The notes under the pieces were generated by a model. It did no database searches. It was not told the origin of the DNA and saw nothing but the letters and a program-made list of their open reading frames with translations. From Nocardia carnea (lineage in GTDB: Bacteria; Actinomycetota; Actinomycetes; Mycobacteriales; Mycobacteriaceae): a stretch of DNA of 64,000 bases. Shown piece after piece: positions 6,249-41,139 of this stretch; positions within the stretch are counted from its first letter, which is position 1; every line of letters starts with the position of its first letter. Position numbers and translations under genes: made by a program. The DNA lies in assembly GCF_029869215.1 (NCBI RefSeq), contig NZ_JARWPM010000198.1:1-64000 (forward strand). Reading direction: 5' to 3'.

Positions 6249-6293
6249 CGTCCTCTACGAAGGAAGCGGCCCCCAACCCGTGACGGTTCAAGC

Positions 6294-6325
6294 TAAGGGG
6301 ACTCGAACCCCTGACCCCCACATAG
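6294..6325 (-). other. tRNA 3'-end-like sequence (possible att-site remnant)
   Basis: On the minus strand the bases next to the IS3 end form a T-arm: AGGGG stem, TTCGAGT loop, CCCCT stem, followed by a short acceptor-like TAGCT. No D-arm or anticodon arm can be found upstream, so this is not a complete tRNA. tRNA 3' ends are the usual attachment sites of actinomycete integrative elements; this fragment could be one side of such a site, later hit by the IS3 element. Confidence 0.35.
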
Positions 6326-6758
6326 ACCGTCATGAGCCCACCGGCCCGGACAGGATCGGTGTGCGGAGCCCAACACCAACGACCACCCCGGCGCGGCGAC
6401 CACCGTAACCGGTAGTGCAGGTCTCTGGCTTCACGAATAACGCTGGGCTGCAACGGAATTGCAATGCATTGATCACAGCTTCCGCAGAGGCCCAACCCGC
6501 GCGGCGCCTCTTCGCGGCTTGCCCCGAGACCAGCAGCACGAACCCGGCCCGCACTGATCGTTGGTCAAAGCGTCAAATCCCCCGACGCACGACAGGAAAG
6601 CGGCCCGGTTCACCTCGCCGAGATGGCCAGGAGCACGAAAAGAGAGCTGACCAGCACAAAGGGCGGAACCCGCCGATGGTGCCCGCCTTCAGTTCTCGAA
6701 CAGTCTCCTCTCGACAAAAGCCTGATGCCGATGCCACCTCGACGACGAAAGCGCGGGG
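6326..6758. other. No convincing gene
   Basis: Short frames exist on both strands, but none has a start signal, consistent codon bias or recognisable motif. Confidence 0.4.
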
Positions 6759-7136
6759 TTACCGGTGGGCCCGCTCGAGTCTTGCATCTACCGGCTTCTT
6801 CCCGACATGGCACGGCGGCCGACGCTGTGTGATCAGAGCTTCTCGATCGCGCTGTGGCGTCCGACCACGTCTACGGGCTACAGCCCCTTTGCTCACAGAG
6901 AGGTCACTCGCAGCATCCGCATCGGTGGCGGTCGTACGGTCGAAGCCGTCGGCGAGGCCCACCGCCTCGATGTCCTGGGCGACGTCGAGCCGGTCTTCGT
7001 TCGAGGTAACTCGGAAGATGGTGCCGCCGTGAGCGCCGGCACACTCGAGTAACTGAGTGAGCTGCTCGTCAACAGGACACCCAGATGTTTCCGGATCGAC
7101 AACTCCGGCCCGGTCGCCGGTCGACGACTCACTCAC
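6759..7136 (-). CDS. Weak hypothetical protein, 125 aa
   Basis: I do not recognise this product. The first ~95 codons from a GTG start have the strong GC third-position bias of real genes in this window (for example the stretch encoding DRLDVAQDIEAVGLADGF), while the last ~30 residues are arginine-rich and look non-coding. No clear ribosome binding site is seen. It may be a degraded or truncated gene. It lies just downstream of the TerD-like gene on the same strand. Confidence 0.25.
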   Translation of the reverse strand: MSESSTGDRAGVVDPETSGCPVDEQLTQLLECAGAHGGTIFRVTSNEDRLDVAQDIEAVGLADGFDRTTATDADAASDLSVSKGAVARRRGRTPQRDREALITQRRPPCHVGKKPVDARLERAHR

Positions 7137-27592: not shown

Positions 27593-29036
27593 TCAGGGTG
27601 CGACAGGTGCCGGTTCCGCGGCAGCAGCGGCGACGGGGCGCCGACCGAAGTACAACAGTCCGGCGGCAAGGGCGCCGACGAACAGGGCGAGCATGCCGGC
27701 GAGCAGCCAGCCGACACCGAAGTTGGCGATGATGGGAATCGCGCCGGCCGTGACGAGACCGCCGCCGAAGAACGGTTCCATGATCAGCTGTTTGTACCCG
27801 AATGCCTGGTATGCCGGGGTTTTCAGATCAGGGTCGACAACCCGCAGCAGGATCAGCCCGGTGGAGGTCACACCCATGGCCTGACCGACATCGGCGATTC
27901 CCCGCTCGAACCAGAAATCCGGCAACATCCGACGCGCCAGGAAAATGAAGGCACCGGCCGTCCACACCAGCCCGGTCACGGCCAACAGGATGAACGGCCC
28001 CATATTCGCCGCGATCGCCGTCAGCGACAAGGTGCCCAAGGCAGCGATCACCAGCACATCGAGGCTGAAACCCTGCAAGCGCTCGATCATCTGCACATCC
28101 ACGATCTCTTCGCGATCGAATGCCTGGATCAAGCCTTGCACGATGATGCCGCCGATCATGGCAATCGGGAACAGCGGCACGTGCGCGAAGAGTTCGAAAC
28201 TGTCGGCCCACAGCTTCGATTCCACCCACTGCAGCCCGGTCAGCATCAGCCACCCGATCAGAACTGCCACCGCCAGCAACCCGAAGTGCAGGGTCAGCGG
28301 CTCGATCGACGAGGGATTCACCGTCAATGTGCCCGCGGAACGACGCCGCTCCTTCTCCACCAGTCCCGCACGCTCGGCCACCGAAGGCTGCGCGTCCGCG
28401 CGCAGTTCGGTGGTTTTGCCGGTGCGCACACCCCAGTTGATCAACGCGATCCCGCAGATGATGCCGGACAGAACGCCCACCGTGGCCAGCCCCAGTGCCA
28501 GGTCTTGCCCCTCGGGGAAGCCGAATTCCTCGAACGTGCCGGCCATACCCGCGGCGGTGCCGTGTCCGCCTTCGAACCCGATCTCGATCAGCGTGCCGGC
28601 CATCGCCGGCAGCCCGAACACCGGCCCGAGCACCAGAATCGCCAGCAGCAGCCCGAACACGTATTGACCGCTGGCCACCGTCATGCCGAACGTGATCTGC
28701 GGCCCGGCCACCCGGAACGCCTCGCGCGGCGACGGCAGCTTGTGCCCCATCAACAGACCGGCGAACACCAGCGAGATCAACAGGCCCGGGAGGGTCTTCC
28801 ACACTTCGATGATCTCCGGGGTCATCAGCCCCGATTCGGCGAACCGGTCGGTGCCGAACAGTCCGGAGATCCGGCCGAATACATCCGGCCCGATCAGCAG
28901 GGCCCAGTGCCCCGCCGATGATCGAACTGGGAATGAACAACTTCTGCGCCAATCGCCACTTGACCCTGATGATTTTGGCGATCAACATCATCACGCCCAG
29001 CAACAACAGTGCGAAGCCAATTGCGTTGGGAGACAT
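27593..29036 (-). pseudogene. gltS: GltS-type sodium/glutamate symporter, frameshifted
   Basis: The N-terminal frame (from MSPNAIGFALLLLG at 29036 through LFIPSSIIGGAL) and the downstream frame (LLIGPDVFG, then WKTLPGLLISLVFAGLLMG to the C-terminus at 27593) fit together as one ~480-residue GltS-like transporter with about ten spans. Key stretches include FGMTVASGQYVFG, FEGGHGTAAG and DVGQAMGVTSTGL. They are in different frames because of one extra G in CTGGGCCCTG near 28905. A single indel in a G/C run could be a sequencing error; if real, the gene is inactive. Apart from this the frame is open and well conserved. Confidence 0.85.
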
Positions 29037-29115
29037 ACCCACCTACTTCCGTCGTCGCGACACCGACCACATCCCCCCGCAGAACCTGCCGCTGGGTGTG
29101 ATGAGCGGAGTAAAC

Positions 29116-29135
29116 GTACCGTTAGTTGACGGTAC
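29116..29135. promoter_or_regulatory. Inverted repeat upstream of gltS
   Basis: GTACCGT and ACGGTAC form a perfect 7-bp inverted repeat with a 6-bp spacer, about 80 bp upstream of the symporter start, in locally AT-rich DNA. It looks like an operator. The regulator is not encoded next to it. Confidence 0.5.
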
Positions 29136-29606
29136 AATAAAGATTGGTCCGTCGCTTGTGAACCGCTCCCCCTGATGGAGATACCTGTCGAGGCGGCGAT
29201 AGATGAGCCGTTCCGCGAACAATGGACACCAATACAGCCGAGGCCGGCAGTCGATCACTGCCAGCCCGAGTCGGCGAGCACACGGTGCCGCACTACTGCG
29301 GCCACTGCAGCGTTCGGGGGCGGGTTTTTCGGGGTTGCGCCCGGCTGCCCGGTGAGGCAGGCTCGGCGCTGGTGTGCCGGGAAGTCTGGTCGGCACCGGT
29401 CCGGCGTGGATCGGGTATGGTCTGACGATCGGGTGAATTCTGCGAAAATCAGCCCTGGCACGCACCGCGTTTCGCGAGCCCACTGCGCTACAGGCGTTCA
29501 CCCCAGGTCCAGGCCTACTGGCCAGCGGCACATGAACACCGCGATGGCTCGCACCGCCTTGGCGGCCACCACCGCGTACGTGACGGCACTGCCGCTCCGG
29601 GCACGA
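29136..29606. other. Intergenic region without supported gene
   Basis: No frame here has an RBS and family resemblance. A short plus-strand frame begins at an ATG at 29532 (MNTAMARTALAATTAYV), about 135 bp after hairpin copy C, but it runs into the repeat and G/C-rich segment and cannot be followed. Confidence 0.45.
29376..29395 (+). ncRNA. Conserved hairpin motif, copy C (orphan)
   Basis: GCCGGGAAGTCTGGTCGGCA, identical over 20 bases to the nhaA-leader copy. Here the stem extends to 6 bp (GTGCCG/CGGCAC, 29374-29396). No intact transporter gene follows; the sequence downstream enters a disrupted region, so its target gene may have been lost or is misassembled. Confidence 0.4.
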
Positions 29607-29671
29607 ATCCCCGTGTTGCGGCGACTGGTAACCCACAAGCGGTTTCCGCCGTTCCGCGCTTGGCATGCGCG

Positions 29672-29765
29672 GCCCCCCCCCGCCCCGCGCGGGGGTGTTT
29701 AACCCCCGGGGGGGGGCCCGGGGCGAACCGGGGGCCCGGCGGGGGCCGGGCCCCCGGGGCGGGCC
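29672..29765. repeat. G/C homopolymer-rich low-complexity tract
   Basis: Runs of C and G up to 9 bases with almost no A or T, like the first 125 bases of the window. It lies between the two repeat units. Either a genuine G-rich tract or an unreliable assembly join. Confidence 0.6.
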
Positions 29766-29772
29766 GGGCGCC

Positions 29773-29866
29773 GAAACTGGCGGCCTCGGTGACCGCGCCC
29801 ACCGCCGAGGTGGCATCGTCGAGGACGAGGATCCGCGGCCGGGCCAGCAGCGCCCGGGCCACCAAC
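29773..29866 (-). pseudogene. ABC-exporter ATPase fragment
   Basis: The minus strand reads VARALLARPRILVLDDATSAV, the segment after the signature motif through Walker B and D-loop of ABC exporter ATPases. Only ~30 residues remain; both flanks are repeat or G/C tract. It may be a real remnant or a chimeric assembly piece. Confidence 0.55.
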
Positions 29867-29948
29867 CCCCGTGTGGGGGCGACTGTAAACCCACACGCGG
29901 TTCCCGCCGTCCCGCGCTTGGCTTGCGCGGCCGCACCCGGCCGCGCGC

Positions 29949-31109
29949 GTGTCTGTTCACGCAGCGGGGTGGCCTCGTCAGCTACCGGCTGCCGCTGCGG
30001 ATCCGGGCACCGCGACGCTGGTGGTGCACACGGGATACAGTTCCTATCCGCCGCGGGCGCAACGCGTCGATCTGCGGGTATCCCGGCCAAACGTCCCGGT
30101 GGTCTACGTCGATGGGTACCCCGCTTCGTGGGGATGGGGCATCACCCGGATCACGATCACGGCCGGAGAGCACCTCGTCGCAGTGGCCGGCAGCCACTCG
30201 CGCTGCTATCGCCGCCTCCACCTCGTAGAAGACGAGACGGTCACCTTGTACTACTCGAGCGTCCTCGGCTCCGGAGCGCACCGGTTCCGGGAGCCGGACG
30301 CGGACGTGCACGAGGGCGTGTGGCTCGGCACCGTCCCGCCGGCGAAATTCACTGCCGCGGACCGTCGGGTCACCGCGGTGGTGCGGGCGGTCCTGGCCTG
30401 CGTCGCAGCGCTGGCCCTGCTGGGTATCACCGCGGAACTACTGGACTCCCCGCTCGAGGACCTGGTCTCGACCGGTGCGCTATTCACCTACGGTGCGATC
30501 GGATCGGGCGTCTGCGGTGGCCTGATACTCGTCGCCGGTGCGGTTGCCGATGCGCTCCGGTCACCCGCTCCACAACCGCCGGTCGACCCTCCGGACCCAT
30601 CGACCCCGCCGGATGTGCGCGTCATCGACTACGACGAGTCCGCGACTCCCCGTCCCGCACCGGGATGGTCCGCGCTCTGCTTGCACCTCCGCTACGAATT
30701 GACCGCCCACACCCCCGAAGAACTGGCCACCGCAGCCGGACGCGAAGGACGGCGACTGAACCCCCTGCAGCGTTGGCGCGTCATCCGCATCGGCGAAGCC
30801 GAGGTACCCGGCGGACGTCCCTGGATACCGCCGCCGGACGTCGCCATCGACGGCGTTGCCATCCCCGCCGGCTGGACACGGATGTGGATACAACTCGCCC
30901 CCGGCACCCATCACATCTCGATCGCACTCGACGCACCCCGGCCCGAAACCGGGCCGACGACAAAAATCGACCTTACCGACGCCCGGCAACAGCACACCGT
31001 CGTTCTGCGTACCGGCGAAACCCACCACCTCGCCGGCCTGGCGACCATCCACGCCCTACCCAGACCCGAGCATCGAGAAATGGCGAAATACCATGCCCGG
31101 CTCAGCTGA
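29949..31109 (+). CDS. Membrane protein with two PEGA-like domains, unknown
   Basis: Up to 386 residues. Two similar short beta-rich segments (NVPVVYVDGYPASWGWGITRITI and, near the C-terminus, DVAIDGVAIPAGWTRMWIQL followed by GTHHISIAL) resemble PEGA-like surface modules. Between them are two hydrophobic helices (VVRAVLACVAALALLGITA and GAIGSGVCGGLILVAGAVA) and a proline-rich linker. No function is known. The N-terminus is uncertain: the GTG at 29949 is next to the repeat, and the true start may be further in, near TLVVHTGYSSY. Confidence 0.6.
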   Translation: MSVHAAGWPRQLPAAAADPGTATLVVHTGYSSYPPRAQRVDLRVSRPNVPVVYVDGYPASWGWGITRITITAGEHLVAVAGSHSRCYRRLHLVEDETVTLYYSSVLGSGAHRFREPDADVHEGVWLGTVPPAKFTAADRRVTAVVRAVLACVAALALLGITAELLDSPLEDLVSTGALFTYGAIGSGVCGGLILVAGAVADALRSPAPQPPVDPPDPSTPPDVRVIDYDESATPRPAPGWSALCLHLRYELTAHTPEELATAAGREGRRLNPLQRWRVIRIGEAEVPGGRPWIPPPDVAIDGVAIPAGWTRMWIQLAPGTHHISIALDAPRPETGPTTKIDLTDARQQHTVVLRTGETHHLAGLATIHALPRPEHREMAKYHARLS

Positions 31110-31119
31110 AACTCCCGAG

Positions 31120-31540
31120 GCGCTGGGCGAGCGCGATGAAACCGGTGACGTCGGTGATGATGGTGAGTGCTGAAGTCCGCGAGCTCGCTGGTCCGCAGCC
31201 GGCTCACCGCGAGCCGCGGACCCGTGCGCCCGGGCGGCCATGGCGCCGAGAACCTCCATATAGGCGGCAGGACACCGCCCCCAAGGACCCGTCGGTGGTG
31301 GTGAACTCGAAGCTGAAGAACGAGCAGCAACTCGACTCCCAGGCCGCCGGATCCAGGACAACCGGTTCGGCGTCGCCAGTGAGCGGGGTTCCAGCCGCTG
31401 ACGAAGAACCGGGCGAACTCGGCGGTTCGGATCGACTGCTTCGCGGTGAGCAGCGTGCGGACATCCCGCACCCCGTTCGTCGGGCACTGGAGGTTGTCAT
31501 TTTCGACGGTAAGCCTGTACTGCGGTACAGGATGCAATCC
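31120..31540 (-). pseudogene. Frameshifted small regulator-associated protein
   Basis: Three minus-strand frames join into one small protein: RTLLTAKQSIRTAEFARFF in the first, LDPAAWESSCCSFFSFEFTT in the second, and AYMEVLGAMAARA in the third. This order (xxTAExPxRxxEFxxLF, then ESxCCxFFxFxF, then VxVLxALAxRA) recalls small actinobacterial proteins often found beside MerR/ArsR-type regulators. Two frameshifts make it a pseudogene unless the sequence is wrong at both places. Confidence 0.5.
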
Positions 31541-31731
31541 CGCATACCGTCGTCAGACGGTCTGTGTTACTACGGGTAGTCCGGCGAGGCTCCATTCGAG
31601 CAGGCCTGCACGGCCGGAGTGACCTCTGCGAGGCGGTGGGGCGGGGCTGCCGACAGAAACCCCAGCTGGGGAGAGCGCGTTCGGGCGCGGTTTCGACCGT
31701 TCCGAGCCGAGTTCCCAGTTACGCTGGCTTA

Positions 31732-32601
31732 ATGGGGGATAGCGAATTATCCAGCGCCACAGACGCGACGGAGCTCAGGCAACCGCGCGCAGGGGACGAG
31801 ACCGTAAAGGTCATGATCACCGTCAAGACCTACCCGAACCCGAGCGACACATACGGCGAGACCGTCTGCGTGGCGGGAGTCAGGCTCGACCGGGAGCGCC
31901 CCGAGTGGATCCGTCTGTACCCGGTGAAGTTCCGCAACGAAGACTTCGACAAACAGTTCAAGAAGTACGAAATCCTGCTTCTCAACGGCACGTACAGACA
32001 GCCCAATGACAACCGCCCCGAGTCGTTCCGCCCTCGCCAAGAAGAGCTGGAACACATAGAGCTGCTGGACACAAGCAGCAATTGGCAGCGGCGCCGGATG
32101 AATCTCGACGGTCTCATCGGCGCCGCTACCATGTGCGGGCTCCTCGCACAAAACCCGATCGGGGGCATGGGCACCCCGTCACCGTCGCTCGGACTCATCA
32201 AACCGACCGACGTCGAGGTCAGCGTCGTCCCCGGAGAACCCTGGTCCGCAGCGGAACAAGCGAAGATCGACAAGTCGTCGGCGCCGGACCTGTTCGGCAC
32301 CTCACTCAGGCCACTGGAACCCGCACCATTCGCTGTCCGATACAAGTACCGCTGCGAATCGTCGAAGTGCCGCGGCCACAACCAGAAAGTGCTCGACTGG
32401 GAGGCAGGACAGGCCAGCCGACGCTGGCTGAAGTCCTACGGTGCCCTCCGAGCGCAGAAGATGCTCCTCGGGAAGTGGCGCGACACCATGCTCGCACCTG
32501 ACCGCGATGTTCACTTCTACGTCGGCAACCAGAACCAGCACCGCCGATCCTTCTCCGTACTCGGCGTCTGGTACCCAAAAACCGAACTCGCCTTGTTCTA
32601 G
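31732..32601 (+). CDS. Conserved protein paired with DUF488, 289 aa
   Basis: I recognise no named domain. The protein begins with a strand-rich segment (VKVMITVKTYPNPS, then ETVCVAGVRLD and EWIRLYPVKFR), and the C-terminal half contains a CxxxxCxGHNQKVLDWE motif that could bind metal or nucleic acid. The ATG at 31732 lacks an RBS but is preceded by a TACGCT-like -10 box, so the mRNA may be leaderless. It converges on, and shares its TAG stop with, a DUF488 gene (CTAG at 32598-32601). Confidence 0.75.
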   Translation: MGDSELSSATDATELRQPRAGDETVKVMITVKTYPNPSDTYGETVCVAGVRLDRERPEWIRLYPVKFRNEDFDKQFKKYEILLLNGTYRQPNDNRPESFRPRQEELEHIELLDTSSNWQRRRMNLDGLIGAATMCGLLAQNPIGGMGTPSPSLGLIKPTDVEVSVVPGEPWSAAEQAKIDKSSAPDLFGTSLRPLEPAPFAVRYKYRCESSKCRGHNQKVLDWEAGQASRRWLKSYGALRAQKMLLGKWRDTMLAPDRDVHFYVGNQNQHRRSFSVLGVWYPKTELALF

Positions 32602-33071
32602 ACGTGCACCACCGCAGCCTTGGGCCGGGCTTCAAGCAGCCGATGCACCACCATGTCACGATGGCACTCGGCATGATCGTGCTCGAAACACAGCAGCGCC
32701 ACCACACCACCGTCGAGAAGCTCGCACACGTGCGCAAGAGCATCGGCCGCTGCGGCACTATCGAGTACGTCGTGATACCGGGCGCGAGATTCCGGCTCAC
32801 CGGCACGGAAACCATCCCGATTGTTCTTCGGATTGCCGAGCGCACGGTGGTGGACGTAACCGATGCCCACCACATCAAGAGCCTCGGCGAGCTTCGTCTT
32901 CGACAGCCCAGGTTTGCGGCTCAGCGGAGTCAGGCGTACATCGACGAGCACCTGGACGTCTTGCTCGACGAGCTGGGCGACGAGATCGTCGATGGTTTTC
33001 CCTTCGTAGCCGATGCTGACAAGGGTTCCTTCGGCGGCGTCGCCATCGGCGGCAGTGTCAGGGGCTCCCAT
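32598..33071 (-). CDS. DUF488 domain protein
   Basis: 157 residues containing the DUF488 pattern: TLVSIGYEGKTIDDLV, VLVDVRLTPLSRKPG, a YVHHRALGNPK segment and VALLCFEHDHAECHRDMV near the C-terminus (conserved Cys and His). DUF488 function is not established. The stop codon overlaps that of the convergent neighbour, an arrangement that could allow antisense interference between the two transcripts. Confidence 0.88.
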   Translation of the reverse strand: MGAPDTAADGDAAEGTLVSIGYEGKTIDDLVAQLVEQDVQVLVDVRLTPLSRKPGLSKTKLAEALDVVGIGYVHHRALGNPKNNRDGFRAGEPESRARYHDVLDSAAAADALAHVCELLDGGVVALLCFEHDHAECHRDMVVHRLLEARPKAAVVHV

Positions 33072-33463
33072 AAGTTCCTATGGTGCACCAACCACTGCGA
33101 TGTAGCGCGATGGACCCACAGGTGCACGCACGAATCACGACCACAGCTCAGTCCGAGTCCGACCAGCCGTGTGCGCTGAGTCTCGCGGTGACGGCAGAGA
33201 TGCCCGAGCAGACACATTCGACGCGCGCAGCGATATTTCGGACTTGCCTCGTCCCGCCCCATCTCTGGCTGGCCGTCCAAGCCCGGCACGAAGGCGCGCT
33301 ACAGACACTGGCAGACCTACCCGACCTGCCACAATGACTCCCGGTCCCGGACATACACCCGGATCAGGTCACACAGTTTCACAGGCAGGACAACGACAGA
33401 ACCATCGTCAATACCATTTCAGTACCAAAACGGGGGGTAAACGGGGGGTTGGTCAAAATAAAA
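33072..33463. other. No gene seen; low-GC tail
   Basis: No supported coding frame. The last ~70 bases are unusually A-rich and contain a direct repeat AACGGGGGGT (near 33430 and 33440) just before a terminator hairpin. Confidence 0.45.
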
Positions 33464-33505
33464 CAGGTCAGGCCAGGTACTAAACCCGGCCTGACCTGGG
33501 GTTTT
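33464..33505. terminator. Rho-independent terminator
   Basis: An 11-bp perfect stem CAGGTCAGGCC / GGCCTGACCTG around a 13-nt loop is followed by GGGGTTTTAA on the plus strand and preceded by AAAATAAAA, giving T-tracts on both strands. The cleanest intrinsic terminator in the window. Confidence 0.75.
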
Positions 33506-33507
33506 AA

Positions 33508-33969
33508 GTGGACCTTGGGGGACCTTACTACAACCCTAAAAGCGCAGGTAGAAGCCCTGAAACGCAGGCGGAAGCCCTGGAAAACCTGATCCAGAAGCTA
33601 CCCGACCCCACAACATCGGCCCCACCGCCTGTGGTGAGAATCAGACCCCGGCGGGCACGGCAACTCGACGCCGATGAAGTCGCGGAGCTGATCACCGGCT
33701 ACCAGGCCGGAGCAACCGTGTATGAACTGGCTGCCCGATTCGGTATCGAACGGCGCACAGTCAGCAATATCCTCCACCGACACGAGGTACCGATGCGCCG
33801 CCGCGGGCTGTCCCCCGACCAGGTCGACACCGCCATCCATCTCTACAAGCTCGGCTGGTCACTCGCCCGGGTCGGCAACCATCTCGACGTCAACCACACC
33901 ACCGTCCTGACGGCACTTCGTCGGCGCGGAATACCCACGCGGGATCCTCATGGGAGAGCGCGAGTGTAA
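33508..33969 (+). CDS. Tandem HTH protein (recombinase-associated type)
   Basis: 153 residues with two successive helix-turn-helix units: [21 protein letters not shown] and [21 protein letters not shown], the latter followed by [11 protein letters not shown]. This tandem-HTH type is common in actinomycete accessory DNA and resembles the DNA-binding tails of resolvases. The N-terminal ~40 residues are encoded by an imperfect 20-21 bp tandem repeat (33543-33583) and may not be translated; a GTG near 33631 is an alternative start. Confidence 0.65.
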
Positions 33970-34370
33970 TCGGTGGCTACGCTATCGCCTCGTAAGGAGA
34001 GGTGTTCCGAGACTGCGGCCCGGATGACCGGTCGGTGGCGGATCGTGGCGATGAGCCCCTGGGGTAGAGATGCCATCGGCCGATGGAGCCGGGCTTTATC
34101 GAATGAGACGCGGACGGCCCGGCCAGCTCCGATTCATCGCCGTCCGCGGCTGGTTCGACGGCCGCCGGGCCCCGCCGGAGCACGGCGACCGCCGACGAGA
34201 AACCAGAACAGGCGGCTGGCCGAACCACCACCAGGCCGACCCGCTACACCGGGCGCTGTCATCGAAACAGATGTAGCGCCGGACTGCCGTGGCGGGAGAG
34301 ACTTTCGGCGTGACCGGCACTGAGGGGCTGGTACTGCCCCACGACGCGCCGGAGCATCGCTTCATGAGGT
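33970..34370. other. Intergenic, no supported gene
   Basis: About 400 bp. A short minus-strand stretch near 33990-34060 reads ATIRHRPVIRAAVSEHLSL but has no start signal or complete frame. Otherwise nothing recognised. Confidence 0.4.
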
Positions 34371-35846
34371 ATGTCCGTGCACCACATGGCGAGCATCGGC
34401 CGTTGTATCCACTCGTCCCGGCGACGCGGCCCGCTGCGAGTCGGCCTGGATCTGTCGACCCTGGGGGCCGAGCCGCCCGATATCGCCGACTTCGTATCGG
34501 TGCTGCGACGGCGCCCGGAAATCGAGCCCGCGTTCCTCGTATTCGGCGAGCAACACGACGATCTGACCGAACCGTGGAGGCAGCGCCTCGATTGCGCGAT
34601 CGTGCATGTCGTGGACTATCACAGCTTCGGCGAACTGGAAAAGATCGCCGACGCGTCGCAGGTCTGGGTGACCACCTACACCGCAGGCGAGCAGACCTTC
34701 GGCGGCTGGTGCCCGTTCTTCGGCGTCTACGCCAACCTCGACGCCCTACAGTCGGCAGAATCCGACCTCACCGAGGAAGACCGCTACCGCGCCGCAGCGC
34801 TGGCGGCCGTGGCCCTCAAACTCGGGCTAGACGTTGTGGTGACCGAGGCGCCGACCGCGGGCCGACCCGAAGTCGCCGACAACGATATCGCCGCCATGAT
34901 CACCCCTCCCGACCTGCTACCGATATTCGGTCACTATCTGCGCATGACGGGAAACCTGAGCCTGCGGTACAACCGAACGGGCGTCATCGTCTACGACGAT
35001 CTGCGCGCCGGATCGGTCAGCGGGGTCTACCACATCGGGATCGAGAGCCACATCCCGCATCTTCGCCACCTGATGGTGGCCGCCCTGATGGGCAGGCACA
35101 CCGATGTCGTCTCCGACCTCGGCTCGATCTCGGCACGGGCCCAGCGCGCGCTGCGCGCGCTCGACGAGTTGCTGGCCGCACTGTCGACCCACAACGGGCC
35201 GCACACACCTACCGCCGATACCACCGAGCGGGTCAGCGAGGCATTCGACCGCGAACTGCTCTACCTGACCGCAGTATTCGACACATTCGGCCGACTGTTC
35301 AGACGGCTGCACGACGGCCGGGGACCGAAGAGGAACGAACCCAAGAGCCTGCACTCTCTGCCCCTAATCACCAGCCACATCGTCGAGAAATACGCCGCCG
35401 GTGAGATCGTGGACCGGATCGTCGAATACAGAACCTACGCCTACATCACCTCGACACTGCGCAACTACATCCATGAGGCCGTACTGCCGACTGGGCCGGT
35501 ACCGAGCCGTGGATACGGCAGCGCTACCACCATCGCCGTAAACCTCGACCTGCTCGACGACGTGAAACTCACCCAGCAACAGGTCGCCAAACTCGGCGTC
35601 TGGAAGGCCAGCACCACGGTCCTGTCGGCCGAACCGACGACCGTCGGCGACTTGGCCACCTTCGCGGTCACCTTGATGACCACGGCGCTCGCCTACGTCG
35701 ACACAGTGATCGAATTGATCCTGTTCCACCACCCCACCGACCCCACCGCAGACGCCCACCCACTCCTCGGATGCGCGCCAAAAGACCTCCATATACCCGA
35801 GCCACGCCCGGACGAATTGCTCATCCGCAGCTACTTCGGCTGGTAA
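34371..35846 (+). CDS. Unknown protein, ~490 aa
   Basis: No recognised family. The chain begins with a Rossmann-like alternation (PLRVGLDLSTLGAEPPDIADFVSVL, AFLVFGEQHDDL) and has a long acidic/helical middle (ERVSEAFDRELLYLTAVFDTFGRLFRRL) and no clear membrane span or signal peptide. Codon bias is strong throughout, so it is a real gene. Several starts are possible: ATG 34371, GTG 34377 (GAGG at a better distance) and ATG 34386. Confidence 0.7.
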   Translation: MSVHHMASIGRCIHSSRRRGPLRVGLDLSTLGAEPPDIADFVSVLRRRPEIEPAFLVFGEQHDDLTEPWRQRLDCAIVHVVDYHSFGELEKIADASQVWVTTYTAGEQTFGGWCPFFGVYANLDALQSAESDLTEEDRYRAAALAAVALKLGLDVVVTEAPTAGRPEVADNDIAAMITPPDLLPIFGHYLRMTGNLSLRYNRTGVIVYDDLRAGSVSGVYHIGIESHIPHLRHLMVAALMGRHTDVVSDLGSISARAQRALRALDELLAALSTHNGPHTPTADTTERVSEAFDRELLYLTAVFDTFGRLFRRLHDGRGPKRNEPKSLHSLPLITSHIVEKYAAGEIVDRIVEYRTYAYITSTLRNYIHEAVLPTGPVPSRGYGSATTIAVNLDLLDDVKLTQQQVAKLGVWKASTTVLSAEPTTVGDLATFAVTLMTTALAYVDTVIELILFHHPTDPTADAHPLLGCAPKDLHIPEPRPDELLIRSYFGW

Positions 35847-35972
35847 TCGGAGCAGCGAAACGGCCGGCGCCTGCCGCACGAAGGCCCACCGCTGGAACTC
35901 CTTGCGGGTACCCCTGGGCACTGTGACCCCGGTCCGCGAGAGTTGTCAGTGGCGCGGAATATCCTGTCGCGC

Positions 35973-37475
35973 ATGCGGATCCTGCACACGTCCGACTGGC
36001 ATATCGGGTTCCGGATGCGTGGCATGCCCTTGCTGGCCGCTCAGCGGGTCATACTCGTCGGGGAGATCCCAGCACTCGTAGAGGAGTGGGAAGTCGATCT
36101 CGTGGTCGTCGCTGGCGATATATACGACAGAACCGATCCATCTGAGGCCGAGGTTGCTGTGTGTCAGGACGCGTTCGCCGCGATCCGAGCTGCTGGCGCG
36201 CAGCTGCTGATAATAGCAGGTAACCATGACTCACCGATCCGTCTGGGAGCCGGAGCAGTGTTCTCTGCCGCAGGCGGGTTGCACTTGGTGACCAGCGTGG
36301 CCGGCATCGGCAGGCCGGTGTTGTTCGACGACGAGCACGGGTCTGTCGCGGTGTACGGGGTTCCATGTCTGCAGTTCACTGGATCCGCGCTCGGTTGTGG
36401 TGCGGGCCGGTCGCACGCCGATCGCTGGCTTACCGCGATGACGCGAGTGCGTGCGGACCTGGCGGGCCGTCCGGAAGCGCGTTCGGTGGTGGTCGGTCAT
36501 GTTCCAGTGGCCGACCCCACCGAACGCGGTCCGGAACGGTTGCGGGTCGGTAGCCGTCACACGGTCCCGGTCGAGGTGTTCGCCGGAATCGACTATGTCG
36601 CGCTCGGTGACCTACACTGGCCGCACGCGGTCTCCCGCGCGGTCCGCTACTCGGGCTCGCCTCTGCCCTATGTCTACGACTTCGGCCCGCGGCCCATCGA
36701 TTTCGACCCGCCGAAATCGGTCTGCATGATCGACCTCGGCGCAGACGGGCTGACCTCGACCACCGAAGTCCCTCTACTCATGCCGTCTGGACTGGTCCGG
36801 GTCGAAGGCACCCTCACCGAGCTCACGGCCGCCACGCGGTCGCTGGACTACGTGCACGCAACGCTGACAGACGCCTTTCGGCCATCCGGGGCATGGAAGC
36901 AGCTACGCAGGCGGTTCCCGTTCCTGGTTCGCGCGGAATGGGTCGATCCCGTCACCGCGAGCGTGACTCCACTTCATCCTGATGAAGCCGAACCACACGC
37001 GTCCCTCGCCACAAGCATGCCTGTGACCGGCGAGCTTTGGCGCGGGTTCTACGGCGAAATGGACCAGCCGTGCCTACGCTGCGGCGCGCACCCTGGACGC
37101 CCCTGCTTCCAGATTCGCAGCGCCATCGGCGCCTCGACCATCAACACCTTCCATCGCGAACGCGGACTCGACGCCGCCGAACTGGCTCGGCTCGGCTATC
37201 AACCCTACGAGGTCGACGACCACGGCACCCACCGCCAGCTGTGGCGCACCGAAAGCCAGTGGCCAGTACACCGGGACGGCTGCCACACCCTACCGCCGAC
37301 GCCGGCCGAACGGCCCGGCCTTGCCGAAGGTCGCCCGAACCGTCTTGGGATCTGCGCCGCACCGGGGTGCGCGGCACCACTGAAACAGCGCCGCGGTGGC
37401 AGACCAGCACTGTACTGCTCCGGCAAATGCCGTGTTCGCGCCCACCGCGCACGCACACCGGTTCCCGCAACGTGA
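35973..37475 (+). CDS. SbcD/Mre11-like nuclease with C-terminal zinc-finger-like motifs
   Basis: 500 residues. The N-terminal ~330 residues are a calcineurin-type metallophosphoesterase of the SbcD/Mre11 type: motif I RILHTSDWHIG, motif II VVAGDIYDR, motif III AGNHDS, VVVGHVPV, and YVALGDLHWP in place of the usual GHxH. The C-terminal part is unlike SbcD: CLRCGAHPGRPCF with a following HRERG, and CAAPGCAAPLKQRRG...LYCSGKC, two candidate zinc-binding modules. No sbcC-type ATPase gene lies next to it, whereas SbcD normally works with SbcC. Start at 35973 gives the canonical SbcD N-terminus. Confidence 0.82.
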   Translation: MRILHTSDWHIGFRMRGMPLLAAQRVILVGEIPALVEEWEVDLVVVAGDIYDRTDPSEAEVAVCQDAFAAIRAAGAQLLIIAGNHDSPIRLGAGAVFSAAGGLHLVTSVAGIGRPVLFDDEHGSVAVYGVPCLQFTGSALGCGAGRSHADRWLTAMTRVRADLAGRPEARSVVVGHVPVADPTERGPERLRVGSRHTVPVEVFAGIDYVALGDLHWPHAVSRAVRYSGSPLPYVYDFGPRPIDFDPPKSVCMIDLGADGLTSTTEVPLLMPSGLVRVEGTLTELTAATRSLDYVHATLTDAFRPSGAWKQLRRRFPFLVRAEWVDPVTASVTPLHPDEAEPHASLATSMPVTGELWRGFYGEMDQPCLRCGAHPGRPCFQIRSAIGASTINTFHRERGLDAAELARLGYQPYEVDDHGTHRQLWRTESQWPVHRDGCHTLPPTPAERPGLAEGRPNRLGICAAPGCAAPLKQRRGGRPALYCSGKCRVRAHRARTPVPAT

Positions 37476-40542: not shown

Positions 40543-40779
40543 ACCACCATGCGTCGAAGAATTCATATCCGCAGGTAGCTGAGTAACCGCCAAGTGTAGG
40601 ACCAATCCCTAAATTGTTTTCCGATGGACTCGCGAAAAATATTGCTGTGGAAATCTTTTCGCTGAATTACCTATTGATGGTCTCCGGGCGCACATATAGC
40701 GTCGTATCCGCCAGAATTGAGACGCCCCGGCTGGTGGGCCAACACCAGACCGGGGCAGGTACGGAGAAAGGGCTCCGCA

Positions 40780-41139
40780 ATGCAAAGTGTAATCATCTCG
40801 GTCGGGTCCGAGGTCGAAGTCGAGGCACCATACGACCGCCGTTTCCACGACGCGGCGGACGAACTCGGTGGCACACCCACCTCGGATGGTGAAGCGTGGC
40901 GCTTCTCCCGCAACGACGAAGAACGTGTCCGCCAACTATGCAGCACAATCTTCGGAGAAGACCAGGGCACGACCCCGGCGACGGACCAGCCGCTCGACCG
41001 CTCCGAAGTCGGCACCAGCGAGGCTTCGGAACTGCCTGTTGTGAGCACCCATCAACGGCGGGCGGACCTGCTCGACCGTCTCGACATGCTGCTCGACGAG
41101 GTCGCTGAGGTACATACCGCCCTGCAAGCGCTGAAGTAG
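40780..41139 (+). CDS. Hypothetical protein, 119 aa
   Basis: No family recognised. An N-terminal beta-type segment (VIISVGSEVEVEAPYDRRFHDAADEL) is followed by an acidic linker and a C-terminal coiled coil (RRADLLDRLDMLLDEVAEVHTAL). The RBS GGAGAAAGG lies in the loop of a small hairpin CGGAG/CTCCG directly before the ATG, which could dampen translation. Confidence 0.6.
   Translation: MQSVIISVGSEVEVEAPYDRRFHDAADELGGTPTSDGEAWRFSRNDEERVRQLCSTIFGEDQGTTPATDQPLDRSEVGTSEASELPVVSTHQRRADLLDRLDMLLDEVAEVHTALQALK

Follow-up and report, generated by a model that had tools for sequence, protein, structure and literature searches.

We analysed a pair of adjacent genes in a 64,000-nucleotide stretch of Nocardia carnea DNA (RefSeq assembly GCF_029869215.1, contig NZ_JARWPM010000198.1, positions 1 to 64,000 of the forward strand; hereafter the window). 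One gene codes for a DUF488 protein and the other for a partner protein predicted to consist of two OB folds in tandem. We found that the two genes travel together across phyla, on plasmids, in phages with repressor and integrase genes, in genomic islands and on other bacterial contigs. On the sequence comparisons given below, the two proteins very probably work together. We suggest that these two genes make up a self-contained accessory cassette of the PDC-M19 type, spread by horizontal transfer, whose role is most likely defence against phages or mobile elements; we give this reading about an even chance.

Conservation and layout of the pair

The partner gene and the DUF488 gene converge and overlap by exactly four bases, CTAG. 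A reading of this DNA made from its letters alone (the sequence-only reading) had described two convergent genes that end on the same four bases, each with TAG, and had called them a DUF488 pair. The coordinates confirm the shared stop, the DUF488 stop codon TAG appearing as CTA at 32598-32600 on the plus strand, and the protein of the minus-strand gene matches PF04343 (expectation value (E) 7.5e-30, 104.5 bits, cut-off 22.2). The features are as follows.

31732..32601, plus strand: partner gene (PDC-M19B; predicted tandem-OB, DuOB-like), open reading frame with ATG start, 289 amino acids (aa), stop codon TAG at 32599-32601
32598..33071, minus strand: DUF488 gene (PDC-M19A; predicted active), open reading frame with ATG start, 157 aa, stop codon TAG
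32598..32601, no strand: CTAG common to both stop codons, read from the sequence

Related loci were collected with an alignment of the partner protein only, and DUF488 played no part in choosing them. The genome sample consists of the best 80 of 457 loci and favours close, mostly actinobacterial relatives; the viral sample has 39 loci. A recognisable partner gene is present in all 80 genome loci and in 38 viral ones. We found DUF488 within 300 bp of the partner in 79/80 genome loci and 36/38 viral loci; at the genome exception (locus L023) the partner gene itself is truncated, and at both viral exceptions the contig ends inside it. Among plasmids, 23 of 72,556 records match the partner, and DUF488 adjoins it in nine of the ten records inspected (fused behind ParB in two). 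The reciprocal comparison across 150 Nocardia genomes gave 15 of 16 DUF488 places (at least 50% identity) abutting a partner match, the other DUF488 matches listed being at most 38% identical; a scan of the viral contigs with the window DUF488 returned six pattern matches and no relative, so that the reciprocal comparison is confined to Nocardia. Moreover, pairwise distances within the two families correlate across 65 loci (r = 0.68; 0 of 2000 permutations as high, maximum 0.16), a correlation that may owe something to shared host ancestry. The sequence-only reading had made joint action of the two proteins depend on whether the pairing is conserved in other genomes or the neighbours there are random, and these counts speak for conservation. 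When open reading frames of at least 80 aa within 5 kb, where the contig allowed, were clustered for 65 representative loci, no other gene family turned up in more than 4 of them; the unit is two genes.

A three-gene run was seen in archaea, with a ParB-HTH-DUF488 gene, a gene for a DuOB-like protein and a gene for a protein of 163-168 aa (L163:2430-4852, Sulfolobus pSOG1; L162:3933-6349). The third gene looks by eye to carry a PD-(D/E)XK motif, but sequence searches against Pfam, PADLOC and PDB did not support it. The idea that a nuclease takes the place of DUF488 as the partner, prompted by Sulfolobus pSOG2, proved wrong for the family, because pSOG1 and pBEU9E1 carry the ParB-DUF488 fusion upstream.

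We next compared gene orientation wherever the partner gene is nearly complete, at 120 loci that include near-identical relatives, the window copy and one phage twice. The pair is convergent at 56 loci and co-directional at 64 (DUF488 upstream in 62, downstream in 2), with no divergent case; among the 65 representatives 40 are convergent, 23 have DUF488 upstream and 2 downstream. All 12 full-length, open Nocardia copies, the window included, are convergent. The 3' ends overlap in 49/56 convergent pairs, by exactly 4 bp in 23 of them (20 CTAG, 3 TTAG) and by up to 62 bp in others. A small control, counted by hand from phage and plasmid gene tables, showed overlap for 8/23 other convergent neighbours and for 0/12 on seven bacterial plasmids, versus 4/5 of the convergent cases of the pair on the same seven plasmids. 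A single 4-bp CTAG overlap means little by itself, but the conserved arrangement is, as far as these sequences go, more than chance. A quick tree requires at least three changes of orientation, of which well-supported branches force only one. Convergent pairs make up a large actinobacterial group (with the window), a group that takes in plasmids of proteobacteria along with viral contigs, and a small one from Streptomyces. On this tree, convergence is old and sticky but not obligatory. In the convergent form a terminator would not fit between the genes, and any transcript that read through would be antisense to that of the other gene. We speculate that such read-through may keep both transcripts low.

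The two proteins and the PDC-M19 candidate system

Both window proteins match components of PDC-M19, a candidate defence system in PADLOC-DB 2.0.0. The partner matches the PDC-M19B model PDLC04508 (E 2.1e-42, residues 25-285) and DUF488 the PDC-M19A models PDLC04505 (E 2e-30) and PDLC04504 (E 6.2e-19); all 54 members of our DUF488 alignment match PDC-M19A, and members also match PDC-M45B and M45C, more weakly. Membership was judged here by E-value and not by PADLOC's own thresholds. The likeness extends to the adjacency of the two genes, while the M19A models run to 234 and 294 positions, with DUF488 in their C-terminal part, and the smaller window DUF488 is without the N-terminal extension. 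On this basis, the window pair is a member of a computational defence candidate that is already catalogued, and the description of its genes as conserved but of unknown function was right about conservation and understated the rest. According to the available part of the source, PDC systems are defence candidates derived by 'guilt-by-embedding', most of them without experimental validation (PMC12988326).

The AlphaFold model of the partner is confident (predicted local distance difference test (pLDDT) 91.5, predicted template modelling score (pTM) 0.88). The best PDB matches of this model in Foldseek are multi-OB nucleic-acid binders, namely baculovirus LEF-3, HIN-200 (domains of cytosolic DNA sensors) and RPA70, with E between 5e-5 and 8e-4. 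VIA aligns PriB and SSB with the N-terminal half (Z up to 8.1, for PriB) and RMI1 with the C-terminal half (Z 7.1). From these weak scores we predict two OB folds in tandem. Searches of Pfam and NCBIfam returned no match for the window partner protein itself, and this is where it differs from PF22557 DuOB (dual OB-containing domain), which it resembles in its predicted tandem OB fold. DuOB is matched weakly by 11 of the 58 members of the partner alignment (E ≤ 0.1, best 9.7e-5); the Sulfolobales homologues reach E 0.0019 and 0.00058, and the L007 and L162 homologues, at 18.7 and 20.4 bits, score below the gathering cut-off of 27 bits. Searches of PDB sequences gave no meaningful solved structure for the partner or for DUF488.

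Residues R61, P64, D93, R95, E97, S98, R121, D222, W223 and E224 of the partner, and also P35, are invariant in 58/58 relatives; C46, A48 and G49 are invariant as well, but they lie in the stretch used to seed the scans. The sequence-only reading had singled out a CxxxxCxGHNQK motif as a sign of nucleic-acid or metal binding. The motif is present in the window protein, where the CESSKCRGHNQK stretch covers residues 208-219, but it does not define the family: both cysteines occur in 39 of the 58 relatives and GH in 33. We therefore dropped a zinc-ribbon interpretation of CxxxxCxGH, which the cysteine count does not support. Nucleic-acid binding itself is plausible, because of the predicted tandem OB fold and not because of this motif.

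The DUF488 model is also confident (pLDDT 93.1). D44, R46, Y72, G79, C128, E130, C136, H137 and R138 are invariant in 54/54 members, and D44, R46, Y72, C128, E130, C136, H137 and R138 are the likely active site; this invariance argues for a working enzyme. All 54 members have CxE..CHR in place of the CX5R loop of cysteine phosphatases (PTP/DSP). The VIA matches include proteins of the PTP fold (laforin, SsoPTP and PRL-1, Z 8.4-9.2) and tetrapyrrole methylases with equal or higher scores (Z up to 10.8), and no rhodanese is named among the best 50 Foldseek or VIA matches, which says nothing either way. DUF488 is a putative rhodanese/phosphatase-like Rossmannoid enzyme, and we presume its place in the rhodanese-phosphatase superfamily partly from the literature. 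With PF22751 DUF488-N3a, an active DUF488-N3 subclade, the window protein scores 24 bits, just under the cut-off of 27, which is passed by the protein of the Gordonia phage Nymphadora and by two Streptomyces proteins (29.5, 32.4 and 37.2 bits).

DUF488 is fused to an N-terminal helix-turn-helix (HTH) domain (HTH_3) in two Streptomyces proteins tested, and lies behind ParB_N and HTH_ParB domains in two Sulfolobales plasmids. An archaeal ParB-fold protein fused to DUF488-HTH is described as binding CTP in the accessible portion of its source (PMC12704722). No natural fusion of the partner with DUF488 was found among the open reading frames of 130 loci. One genome has a second DUF488 gene (G000:C113:4139-4474, at L002), without a DuOB partner in the 3.3 kb examined.

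Mobile settings in Nocardia genomes and Gordonia phages

Partner matches are present in 23 of 150 Nocardia genomes, 12 of them full-length and open and 11 fragments, broken or marginal. In Nocardia, the pair lies in a sharply bounded block of about 1.6-1.9 kb. DNA identity to other Nocardia loci is about 90-92% over 31608-33144 and about 78-80% over 33321-33523. The similarity to L144, L148 and L149 starts at 31608 and runs into the pair at about 91%, with flanks unrelated to the window. On the right side, L143 matches as far as 33252; L144 and L157 match as far as 33144 or 33156 and again over 33321-33523. More distant Nocardia copies match at the DNA level over the genes alone (about 74%). 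In L143 (Nocardia G100) the similarity starts at 31728, just before the ATG, with a different upstream sequence, possibly an insertion boundary. The features of the block are as follows.

31608..33523, no strand: mobile cassette, approximate extent, from blastn against other Nocardia loci; flanks differ
31720..31725, plus strand: TACGCT, possible -10 element, six bases before the partner ATG; conserved in L144, L148 and L149
33464..33498, minus strand: strong terminator-like hairpin, a 15-pair stem followed by TTTTATTTT

The TACGCT element would possibly give a leaderless mRNA for the partner gene; a strict consensus scan returned no promoter at the window locus. The hairpin at the right end directly follows a tRNA-Ala(GGC) gene in L144, L148 and L157, of which only L144 is intact. 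The window keeps the hairpin without the tRNA-Ala gene, so its copy looks like one that moved on, and the hairpin may be left over from an earlier site beside a tRNA gene. No tRNA gene was found in the whole window, and an Rfam search of 29000-36000 gave no match. A DUF488 gene, of this subfamily or another, that lies downstream of a tRNA is listed as a recombination hotspot in Mycobacterium avium (PMC12584985). In the decaying copies L148, L149 and L157 (Nocardia G027, G147 and G015) the partner gene is cut or carries stop codons, and DUF488 is lost in two and intact in one. Genomes G015 and G005 keep an open DUF488 frame with more than half of the partner gene gone.

Elsewhere in the window, 35943-37475 holds a metallophosphoesterase gene (weak SbcD_C match) with a phage-type zinc-finger match, possibly a mobile-region gene near the pair. 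In other Nocardia genomes, DNA similar to the segments 6291-6839 and 40692-41134 lies close to DuOB-DUF488 loci or their remnants (79-86% in L144 and L159, 73% in L145-L147), although in the window both segments are distant from the pair; the two proteins tried from these segments have no Pfam match.

Seven of 50,697 phage records contain the partner, and five of these are Gordonia phages by name, with repressor and integrase genes. In Nymphadora, the start codon of the partner (gene 43) begins on the last base of the stop codon of the immunity repressor (gene 44), and gene 42 is a convergent DUF488 with a 10-bp overlap with gene 43. The surrounding 5.2-kb region is partly matched by 121 phage records, only 7 of which have the pair. 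In the related phages LonelyBoi, Bunnybear and Maridalia the slot is empty, and a metalloprotease gene lies no more than about 60 bp after the repressor. In the Gordonia phage Bosnia (L167:363-2215) the slot is taken by a different pair, gp45/gp44, also convergent and overlapping by 4 bp, where gp45 matches PDC-M30A (E 1e-20) and gp44 (DUF5131) matches PDC-M41B (E 7.2e-112) and PDC-M30B (E 5.1e-107). The Bosnia pair thus shares with ours the phage slot, the convergent overlap and the status of PADLOC candidate, and differs in belonging to protein families other than DuOB and DUF488.

Repressor-linked gene pairs with a defence role are known from other phages. According to the portion of the paper available, the Gordonia phage CarolAnn, which belongs to a different cluster, cotranscribes its repressor with genes 44 and 43; these defend against several phages, and the authors compare them with lambda rexAB (PMC6426606). 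The same portion gives cotranscription with the repressor for CarolAnn and lambda, an own promoter for Sbash, and prophage defence as shown for CarolAnn and Sbash (PMC6426606). CarolAnn gp44/gp43, Sbash gp30/31 and lambda RexAB resemble the Nymphadora pair in being two accessory genes close to an immunity repressor. The CarolAnn proteins differ, as far as that text describes them, in being a DUF4747-like and a membrane protein with no similarity noted, and the second Nymphadora gene lies on the opposite strand. By analogy, the repressor-linked position of the pair is suggestive of a defence role.

Possible functions

How a defence module of this kind might act can be outlined from the predicted folds. 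Judging from its fold, the tandem-OB protein would bind the single-stranded nucleic acid that an invader exposes while it replicates. The invariant active-site residues suggest that DUF488 would be a working cysteine-dependent enzyme of the rhodanese-phosphatase type, and the domain architecture that the OB protein, or the HTH or ParB domain fused to DUF488 elsewhere, would bring it to nucleic acid. DUF488 might then modify the nucleic acid or a bound nucleotide and so stop replication or trigger arrest. A bolder version, which we consider rather unlikely, is a new immune chemistry in which an RPA/HIN-like tandem-OB sensor of single-stranded nucleic acid licenses DUF488, a cysteine enzyme with an atypical C-x-E...C-H-R centre, to modify phage nucleic acid or the nucleotide pool, the overlap being an antisense brake that arose more than once and the PDC-M30-like pair a second, unrelated system with the same layout.

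Several observations weigh against an anti-phage or anti-mobile-element role, or against parts of this outline. Pair neighbourhoods are not clearly richer in defence genes than random Nocardia regions. We compared 133 of 141 called neighbours of 25 loci with 133 of 155 control proteins drawn from 20 random Nocardia regions; gene calling followed a simple composition rule, and proteins longer than 900 aa were dropped, as were those beyond a length limit. Thirteen of the 25 loci are Nocardia (the window and three broken copies included), and the control is entirely Nocardia. PADLOC models matched at E ≤ 1e-10 number 57 around the pair versus 18 in the control, with distinct proteins not countable from these figures. 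Most of the best 25 of the 57 are PD-T4-6 models with one member each, which we take to be a kinase family, and the control matches are mostly Jet (Wadjet) models, also with one member each. The neighbourhood survey proposed in the sequence-only reading thus finds the two families co-occurring, and its defence-island part yields no clear enrichment. A literature search in one open library found no experimental test of the PDC-M19 pair. Orientation is not fixed, hence convergence is not essential to function, and pSOG2 has a partner gene without DUF488 in the stretch examined. On the structural side, the OB matches are distant (Foldseek TM about 0.2-0.4) and VIA scores of Z 7-8 may reflect only a common arrangement. 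For DUF488, the classical CX5R loop is not conserved (CX5R occurs anywhere in the protein in 16/54 members), Foldseek gave no match of the model at E ≤ 0.001, and VIA ranks a tetrapyrrole methylase first (Z 10.8). Finally, Nymphadora is itself sensitive to the CarolAnn system and appears only as a target phage in the accessible text of that study (PMC6426606).

Some of the same evidence would fit a function for the mobile element's own benefit: the pair could act on the nucleic acid of the element, by modifying or protecting it, or could control the element's replication, partition or lysogeny. Carriage by plasmids, phages and islands, the ParB_N and HTH_ParB domains ahead of DUF488 in the two Sulfolobales plasmids and the coupling of the Nymphadora pair to a repressor gene agree with such a role. 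So do the CTP-binding archaeal ParB-fold-DUF488-HTH protein (PMC12704722, as far as available) and, as a further point against defence, Methanoperedens plasmids in which a DUF488 protein, with or without an OB partner, is encoded among replication and repair genes (PMC9674854). However, no replication or partition gene, nor any other family, is constant around the pair, the limit of four in 65 loci applying here too; related phages do without the pair, and it decays freely in Nocardia. We regard this function as somewhat unlikely. A toxin-antitoxin or addiction module, with DUF488 poisoning nucleic acid or the nucleotide pool and the OB protein neutralising it (or the reverse), would account for two adjacent small genes with a mobile and patchy distribution. 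Many self-regulating toxin-antitoxin modules contain HTH domains, as the two Streptomyces DUF488 proteins do. The open DUF488 frames left in G015 and G005 after loss of more than half of the partner gene count mildly against DUF488 as a simple toxin, since these genomes, if they express it, tolerate it alone. To our knowledge, convergent genes with separate promoters are also unusual for toxin-antitoxin modules, which counts against this explanation, and we find it improbable. A host function in DNA repair or RNA modification that happens to sit in mobile regions is the most doubtful of these explanations: OB folds of the RPA, SSB and PriB types and rhodanese-like enzymes are common in repair and RNA thio-modification, yet any match is limited to 23 of 150 Nocardia genomes and a full-length open copy to 12, the cassette has sharp mobile boundaries, and the absence of a recurrent neighbour family argues in the same direction. 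We consider it highly improbable.

Burroughs and Aravind, writing on the rhodanese-phosphatase superfamily (NARGAB 2023), may already describe an association of DUF488 with DuOB. The convergent overlap, the sharp cassette boundaries and the repressor-linked phage slot were not seen described in the one open library searched, and we claim no priority for them.

Overall, our favoured reading of the pair as a mobile PDC-M19-type cassette, probably directed at phages or other mobile elements, bears on a widespread family that Pfam still lists as function-unknown. With very few exceptions among the loci examined, a single DUF488 subfamily goes with a single partner of nucleic-acid-binding type, which assigns it a definite role that can be tested. 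For a mobile module of two genes, the conserved convergent overlap is an unusual arrangement, and the Gordonia phage copy offers small test material in a slot where other defence candidates sit.

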